NCBI GenBank assembly: GCA_001725505.1
Contig: MEGM01000087.1
Location: 1 to 34,756 of the forward strand
Length of the DNA stretch: 34,756 bases
Source: Rubrivivax sp. SCN 70-15
GTDB taxonomy: Bacteria; Pseudomonadota; Gammaproteobacteria; Burkholderiales; Burkholderiaceae_C
Direction of reading: 5' to 3'
Shown: one piece after another, positions 26,316 through 27,166 of the stretch
Layout of the letters: every line of letters starts with the position of its first letter
How positions within the stretch are numbered: position 1 is the first letter of the stretch
Notes under the pieces: generated by a model
The model's input: only the letters and a program-made list of their open reading frames with translations
Databases searched by the model: none
What the model was told of the DNA's origin: nothing
Translations under genes and position numbers: made by a program

Positions 26316-26365
26316 GAGCCTGTGAACGTATGAATCGCGGGTGCGATTCATATCTTCACAGGCTC
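26316..26365. terminator. Long imperfect hairpin between convergent genes (bidirectional terminator or small repeat)
   Basis: GAGCCTGTGAA (26316-26326) pairs with TTCACAGGCTC (26355-26365). TATGAATCGC (26329-26338) pairs with GCGATTCATA (26343-26352). A 2x2 internal loop and a GGGT apical loop complete a 21-bp stem. It is far more AT-rich than its surroundings. It fills the space between the sbcB stop and the convergent sulfotransferase-like stop, so it can act for both transcripts. Confidence 0.65.
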
Positions 26366-27099
26366 TCAGCCCGCGTGGGCGAGCAGGCTTTCGTAGGCGT
26401 CGCGGCAGGCGTCGGCGACGCGCTGGTGCGCGCCGTCCAGCGCCGCCGGCAGGTCGCGTGCGGCCTCGAAGCCGGTGGAGCGCCAGACCGCGGCGTACCA
26501 GTGCGGTGCCCAGACGCCGTCGCTCGCACGCGGACCCGCAGGCCAGTGCAGCATGCGGTCGCTGAAGGCCAGGCCCAGGCGCGCGCACAGCCGCTGGAGA
26601 TGGCCGCGCGGGTCGCGCAGGAAGCGCTCCGCATCGATCACCGGCGGTGCCTGGCCGAGCCGGTCGGCGACCTCGTCGAACATGCGGCGCTGCTGGAGCA
26701 GCCCGATGTCCCCGGGCGCCACGTTCGCGCGCGACTTGACGTAGCTCGCGACCACGCGAACGGGGTCGCGGATCAGGAAGACGTTCGTCAGCGCGTGCAC
26801 CCAGGCGCAGTCCATGCCCGGGAGCAGATGGTGCGCCATGTGCTTCTGGTACCAGACCGGCCGGCCGCCGGGCACCGGCCCGCCGAGCGCGGCGACGACG
26901 CGCCGCCAGTCGAGGCTGTCGCCGGCGCGGCCGGCCGCGACGACCTCGTCGCGGCCCGGGTGGTCGAGGTCGGGTAATGCGCGTACAGCGGCTCGTCGCT
27001 GACCGCGCAGTCGCCCCGGTTCTCCCAGGCGCGCATCATCGCCGTGCTGATGTTGCGCGGGCCGCTCCAGGCGGCGATGCGAATCGGCGCCTCGGTCAT
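26366..27099 (-). pseudogene. Sulfotransferase-like P-loop protein, frame-broken
   Basis: The ATG at 27099 opens MTEAPIRIAAWSGPRNISTA and MMRAWENRGD, a sulfotransferase-type 5'-phosphosulfate loop. After DEPLYAHY the homology moves to another frame, which reads DLDHPGRDEVVAAGRAGD. It continues to GGRPVWYQKHMAHHLLPGM and the 3'-phosphate-type motif NVFLIRDPVRVVASYVKSR, ending at 26366. The break is at about 26968-26978 beside a GGG run. Total length (about 244 codons) matches intact relatives, so one indel is enough. The gene directly follows a class IV aminotransferase gene. As I recall, plants have fusions of such domains (BCAT-like proteins), which would suggest a shared pathway. Confidence 0.78.
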
Positions 27100-27166
27100 G
27101 GTTCTGCGGCGATGCGGATCGGCGCCTCGGTCATGGTTCTGCGGCGATGCGGATCGGCGCCGTCAC
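27074..27166 (-). repeat. Tandem 35-bp repeats spanning the sulfotransferase-like start, with two mini-cistrons
   Basis: On the plus strand, a 35-base unit beginning GCGGCGATGCGGATCGGCGC occurs at 27071-27105 (one mismatch) and 27106-27140, with a partial third copy from 27141 to about 27166. On the minus strand each copy carries a start codon and the APIRIAA coding stretch. GTG 27166 and ATG 27134 open frames of 11 and 12 codons (M-T-A-P-I-R-I-A-A-E-P and MTEAPIRIAAEP). Each stops in a TGA overlapping the next ATG (ATGA). The real gene starts at the last copy, ATG 27099. The first copy overlaps the aminotransferase stop as GTGA. Confidence 0.85.

Follow-up and report, generated by a model that had tools for sequence, protein, structure and literature searches.

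A tandemly duplicated stop/start overlap as a candidate mini-cistron relay into a frameshifted sulfotransferase-like gene of Rubrivivax sp. SCN 70-15

Analysis of a contig of Rubrivivax sp. SCN 70-15 revealed that an aminotransferase gene and the sulfotransferase-like gene behind it are separated by a tandem repeat that reads as two mini-cistrons, each ending in a stop codon that overlaps the next start. The window, meaning here the whole stretch of DNA that was analysed, is 34,756 nt long (assembly GCA_001725505.1, contig MEGM01000087.1, positions 1 to 34,756). On its minus strand, a class-IV aminotransferase gene (AT) lies 5′ of the sulfotransferase-like gene (ST, PF19798), and the comparison with relatives identifies the two as a predicted operon pair that usually shares a 4-nt NTGA overlap, the standard geometry of coupling by termination and reinitiation. 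We hold with moderate confidence that this ancestral overlap was parted in the window by insertion and duplication, that the duplicated units would form a relay of mini-cistrons and that the relay now feeds a broken ST.

Table 1. Features of the AT/ST locus and junctions with a relay
Feature	Position	Strand	Basis
AT, class-IV aminotransferase, intact, 310 aa	28095..27163	minus	PF01063, E=9e-45, profile 1-223 of 223
AT stop TGA	27165-27163	minus	sequence
Mini-frame 1, GTG start, 11 codons, MTAPIRIAAEP*	27131..27166	minus	sequence, relay chain
Mini-frame 2, ATG start, 12 codons, MTEAPIRIAAEP*	27096..27134	minus	sequence, relay chain
Tandem repeat, 35-bp unit, 2.6 copies, 98% match, score 175	27071..27161	minus	TRF
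Truncated ST-like ORF, 103 aa; codons 1-42 precede the deletion, remainder out of frame	26788..27099	minus	
10-nt deletion junction, frame shifted past codon 42	26973..26974	minus	alignment with ten relatives
ST C-terminal remainder of about 201 codons, uninterrupted in a different frame	26366..26973	minus	frame analysis
Relay junctions: window, L010, L011, L100, L108, L109, L122, L130, L191, L199, L200			

The repeat array and its reading frames

The preliminary description of this DNA had reported near-identical repeats of about 35 bp, mini-frames of 11 and 12 codons whose TGA stops overlap the following ATG, and a first start overlapping the AT stop, and all of these were recovered at exact minus-strand coordinates (Table 1). 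The GTG at 27166 overlaps the AT stop as GTGA, the stop of mini-frame 1 (TGA 27133-27131) overlaps the ATG at 27134 that opens mini-frame 2, and the stop of mini-frame 2 (TGA 27098-27096) overlaps the ATG at 27099 that opens ST, beginning MTEAPIRIAAWSGPRN; the geometry is ATGA at both of these later rungs. AT stop and ST start are 63 bases apart. The copies are adjacent, near-identical and in register, with a TRF period of 35, as a tandem duplication would leave them, and the longest exact self-match in the array spans 44 nt at a distance of 35. Among 61 arrays detected in 368,989 bp of the source genome (20 sampled stretches plus the window), this one has the second highest TRF score, after a 297-bp repeat; as a repeat, it exceeds chance. 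The chain of stops and starts, taken alone, is not rare in the GC-rich DNA of the source genome: a loose scan of the same 368,989 bp returned 80 NTGA chains, a figure that includes sub-chains and does not distinguish the share lying in real genes, and eight distinct chains of at least two rungs, the window's among them.

The absence of a good ribosome binding site before ST, also part of the preliminary description, agrees with a simple motif list, which found no such motif 4-18 nt 5′ of the ATG at 27099. The possibility that the repeats serve as an RNA structure was rejected, the 141-nt region folding no better than its shuffles (z 0.45), and no known RNA family matched the window at gathering thresholds.

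As to the two genes, the top NCBIfam matches of AT are branched-chain and D-amino-acid transaminases, every one of them under its cut-off, and the same search gave no name for either piece of ST. In an order search of 399 genomes, only one, through the window's own AT, reached the threshold (1/399). Two other repeats were seen in passing. A palindromic element (window 26316-26365, half-site GATTCATATCTTCACAGGCTC) separates the convergent ends of the exonuclease and sulfotransferase genes; its half-site, with up to three mismatches, occurs 17 times in the source genome and the reversed control pattern not once, and the element looks like a REP-type repeat or a shared terminator. At L150 (G000:C75, 767-1643), a 297-bp unit stands three in tandem with an 87% match, and the translation of its consensus, read by eye, starts QVTFYENEGFAGRSF, which we take to be reminiscent of beta/gamma-crystallin domains.

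Conservation of the overlap in relatives

Related junctions were gathered in two sets. The first started from 123 loci with an AT-like gene, of which 93 had the ST motif nearby and gave 88 distinct junctions; the motif was missing nearby in the other 30, many of them distant paralogues. The second drew in part on 75 places, one of which, at a contig edge (G1663), was left out, and its 81 loci gave 71 new distinct junctions, nine repeats of junctions already counted and one locus without the ST motif. An NTGA overlap was present in 71 of the 87 distinct relative junctions of the first set (50 ATGA, 13 GTGA and 8 TTGA), and over both sets a direct stop/start overlap was found in 133 of the 158 relative junctions having ST, the conservation expected of a pair coupled by termination and reinitiation. 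Comparison of repeat number in relatives, which the preliminary description had proposed, found the 35-bp array in none of these 158 junctions, all of which belong to other species or lineages. An exact direct repeat of at least 13 nt lies near just one of them, L199 (14 nt at a distance of 15), and the nearest same-genus matches across the whole gene pair reach only about 80% identity.

Origin of the array

Collapsing the two units yields GTGACGGCGCCGAT(T/C)CGCATCGCCGCCTGG, a plain GTGA overlap. The earlier proposal of a single-copy ancestor with such an overlap stands in this respect; the slippage route from that ancestor does not. Pure slippage is excluded by the 14 of the 35 unit nucleotides (AGAACCATGACCGA) that are missing from the collapsed form, and because this string is absent there, slippage must have been preceded by an insertion or by exchange with a different allele. 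The unit may have arisen either as a 35-nt insertion that was then duplicated or by an exchange that joined two alleles, in which case the AT end of one allele would read GCC GCA GAA CCA TGA. In the search for a template of the 14-nt filler, an 18-nt pattern with up to two mismatches matched the source genome only at the two sites in the window, and a 23-nt pattern searched in 81 genomes of the genus gave, beyond the window's genome, only two matches, with three mismatches. The order of events that we infer is that a 35-nt insertion, in part a local copy, would have entered the AT/ST overlap in the window's lineage, and that tandem duplication of these 35 nt would then have left 63 bases between AT stop and ST start.

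A unit of length 3n+2 that carries ATGA would make every copy read as a mini-cistron with its stop overlapping the following start. In any duplicated 3n+2 segment that contains an NTGA overlap, the frame of the first start leads to the copied TGA unless an earlier stop intervenes. Duplications simulated at six same-genus junctions gave a ladder in 6,032 of 17,802 cases (about one in three), all of length 3n+2; a ladder thus follows almost automatically from a tandem duplication of that length spanning an NTGA overlap. Because it follows arithmetically from the duplication, the two coupled frames amount to one coincidence, that of the unit length, and not to two.

The frameshifted downstream gene

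The frame beyond the ladder had been taken for the real gene, and its start is indeed in place, but the gene is not intact. Ten nucleotides that are present in all ten aligned relatives are deleted after codon 42, and the frame is shifted from there on. The truncated ORF matches PF19798 over residues 6-59 (E=5e-12), and the C-terminal remainder, which runs to a natural stop (26368-26366), matches the same family in the piece 26366-26875 (E=4e-35). Slightly downstream of the deletion, a 12-nt in-frame insertion further distinguishes the window from the ten relatives. In this respect the window departs from a termination-reinitiation coupled pair, in which the downstream gene is intact. A compensating frame was considered and ruled out: the GTG at 27166 shares the frame of the ST C-terminal part (two extra units plus the deletion make +60 nt), but the TGA at 27133-27131 intervenes and the product would lack the conserved N-terminal motif. 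The in-frame relation is regarded as a coincidence.

In the C-terminal part of the window's ST, 46-56% of the differences from the ten relatives fall at third positions, compared with 45-76% among the ST genes of six intact relatives; its residues differ from those six by 24-28%, and those of the six from one another by 3-26%. Because the third-position bias is kept, the frameshift appears to be either very recent or an assembly error, and any sign of relaxation is slight at most. Across the 159 distinct junctions, the ST frame stops within 220 codons past the motif in three (after 93 codons in the window, 74 in L068 and 145 in L223), and in L064 and L203 it runs off the contig. In L068 and L223 the shortened frame lies next to AT, which may mean that AT has been retained through more than one loss of ST.

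The array and the deletion might both be artefacts of a metagenome-like assembly (267 contigs) in which reads from two alleles were merged. The source assembly (4.03 Mb, 89.98% complete, 4.01% contamination) may be metagenomic and the locus a strain mixture; the two unusual indels are less than 200 bp apart, and the 14 nt of the unit resemble what would be another allele's natural AT/ST junction, the string ending in CCA TGA given above. The 18-nt pattern with this string is, however, unmatched elsewhere in the genome at up to two mismatches, and the 23-nt pattern is matched elsewhere in the 81 genomes of the genus only with three mismatches. The neighbouring AT, exonuclease and MFS frames are, moreover, open and match their families, an ordinary short read is longer than the 91-bp array, and sequencing errors do not typically delete 10 nt. 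We consider an artefact of this kind improbable.

The preliminary description had seen in the array a possible copy-number dial, whereby slippage by whole units would alter the number of reinitiation steps and tune downstream expression. The principle is sound in so far as the overlap geometry is arithmetically the same at any copy number, so that whole-unit slippage leaves the frame of ST itself unchanged, and slippage between near-identical copies is conceivable. As the leading reading, however, it was dropped, and we now regard it as very improbable. Because ST is frameshifted past codon 42, there is no intact gene with an output simply to be dialled; the array is known from a single assembly and from none of the 158 relative junctions, and, with only 2.6 copies of its 35-nt unit, it does not resemble the simple-sequence repeats of phase variation.

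Relays at separated junctions

Besides the 133 direct overlaps, the 159 junctions include 24, the window's among them, in which the ST motif lies more than 25 nt past the AT stop with no direct overlap; L073 (5-nt gap) and L128 (AT stop misassigned) were set aside. A start codon overlapping the AT stop is retained in 12 of the 24, and in 11 of these 12 a relay leads from the AT stop to the ST start, the frame opened there reaching a stop that overlaps the ST start, with two steps in the window and L100 and one step in the remaining nine. L222, whose insert is much longer, retains the start and has no relay; in the other 12 separated junctions nothing starts at the AT stop, and a relay is impossible by definition. 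The number of relays was compared with a null in which each gap was resampled from its own dinucleotides (from the flanks if the gap was short) and its length varied from -1 to +1, with the AT stop and ST start held fixed and conditioned on a non-direct junction. Against the 11 relays observed, 4.22 were expected (P 2.4e-5). The figure without the window, 10 of 11 relatives against 3.71 expected (P 4.6e-5), is post hoc, and the enrichment, which concerns one gene pair, was first spotted in the initial 88 junctions; the second set alone, gathered after the idea, gave three relays in four junctions, with 1.12 expected (P 0.056); of these three, L191 and L200 carry homologous inserts. Shared ancestry was addressed solely by dropping homologous inserts. 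Without the window, L200 (insert homologous to that of L191) and the two-step L100, there remained eight relays in nine junctions against 3.22 expected (P 7e-4).

Among the inserts of the relay junctions, BLAST found similarity past the shared ST start between L191 and L200 alone, L122 being too short to compare. In the wider set, some inserts match one another in either orientation, in the manner of palindromic elements, and relay and non-relay junctions alike contain related elements (L199 and L090; L108 and L099). The idea that a relay and a Shine-Dalgarno sequence simply replace one another found no support, a Shine-Dalgarno-like motif before the ST start being about as common in relay junctions (5/11: L010, L108, L109, L122 and L130) as in those scored junctions where nothing starts at the AT stop (5/11: L090, L099, L174, L192 and L205). 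Some junctions deserve mention individually. In L010, of the same genus, about 67 bases lie between AT and ST, a GGAG precedes the GTG of ST and a 24-codon frame links both genes, so that this junction is perhaps intermediate between coupling and independent initiation. In L191 and L200, two species of one genus, the homologous inserts of about 160 nt contain a large palindrome and are just 74-85% identical, with the relay frame kept in both.

Relays thus occur at AT/ST in at least eight relatives whose inserts have no recognisable kinship, and the tandem ladder of the window is a two-step case. From this pattern we infer that relays at this junction have been retained by selection: an insert would be tolerated preferentially when its length and frame are such that translation begun at the upstream stop ends at a stop codon overlapping the start of the downstream gene. 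Relays would then be a recurrent, selected means of keeping overlap-coupled genes coupled after DNA insertion, a generalisation that we put forward tentatively, as possible rather than probable. The recurrence suggests that coupling of AT and ST is worth keeping.

For the window itself, the duplication might instead have struck a dying or dispensable gene, the ladder being a by-product that never acted as a relay. This would agree with the frameshift in ST, with the 12-nt insertion as a third indel at the locus, with the ease with which duplications produce ladders (about one in three) and with the restriction of the array to one known assembly. It is harder to reconcile with relays in relatives being commoner than under the null, with the ST frames of the relay relatives, none of which stops within 220 codons, and with the third-position bias, by which ST was functional until recently. 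We judge neutral debris unlikely, if less so than an artefact of assembly.

Coupling by reinitiation

The preferred reading, in which the ladder passed ribosomes from AT to ST, draws on reporter work on reinitiation. As described in PMC10666635, overlaps of 4 nt couple, whereas most larger gaps do not, and coupling needs no more of the upstream gene than its last 15 nt; about 20 nt nearly abolished reinitiation in Haloferax, and in three E. coli pairs a distance of 38 nt reduced it by 80-100%. Because reinitiation in this published work drops steeply with distance, a gap of 63 nt should largely uncouple ST. Gaps do not always uncouple, since the same source describes one E. coli pair that bridged a 15-nt gap and PMC6728339 mentions a long intergenic region with partial coupling. 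Translated mini-frames (36 and 39 nt) would add two steps by which ribosomes pass from AT to ST, and such a relay would retain the coupling that the gap should otherwise mostly abolish. Judged by analogy with these sources, reinitiation at every rung is plausible, and we think that the ladder would work as a relay if translated. It may be an inefficient one, because removal of the Shine-Dalgarno sequence clearly lowered reinitiation in four of five E. coli pairs (PMC6728339) and none was found before the ST start of the window. At present the relay is probably without consequence, feeding as it does a gene that is frameshifted past codon 42, and because ST is broken no present benefit is expected from it.

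Implications

Little is at stake in the window alone, since its relay feeds a broken gene. If relays are selected, however, short unannotated frames in operon gaps would be functional connectors in which the frame matters and not the peptide. This would explain small ORFs that are conserved in position but not in sequence, and it would provide a direct comparative test of the natural strictness of termination-reinitiation. Relays that preserve coupling across inserts may be new: among the open-access papers searched, no title or abstract opening reports tandemly duplicated start/stop overlaps or mini-ORF relays that bridge inserts between coupled genes, and the passages of PMC3843671 on overlap disruption in Salmonella mention no such relays.

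Comparison with known systems

With simple-sequence-repeat phase variation the window shares, in principle, an expression that depends on repeat number; it differs in its 35-nt unit, its 2.6 copies and its broken target gene. Synthetic bicistronic designs likewise place a short leader cistron before the target gene; unlike the window they are engineered, and they usually have a single mini-cistron that is provided with a strong ribosome binding site. A synthetic two-cistron design with a short first cistron was reportedly described by Schoner (1986).

A natural precedent is the axe-txe minigene. According to PMC8708949, translation of a gene is raised in cis by very short natural ORFs 5′ of it, the distance from mini-ORF stop to gene start being the crucial parameter, and a longer mini-ORF whose stop overlaps the start is still effective. 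The leader minigenes, of two codons, were tested with reporters, removal of the whole leader raised output by 30%, and the authors invoke mRNA protection besides coupling. The likeness to the window lies in very short frames that aid downstream translation through proximity; unlike the window, the axe-txe minigene neither bridges two overlap-coupled genes nor involves a tandem repeat. The window may also be compared with termination-reinitiation coupling at gene pairs with ATGA and GTGA overlaps, as presented in PMC6728339 and PMC10666635. The same 4-nt overlap is found in most AT/ST junctions of relatives and likewise at every rung of the ladder in the window, whereas here a tandem duplication has interposed two mini-cistrons and the last gene carries a frameshift.
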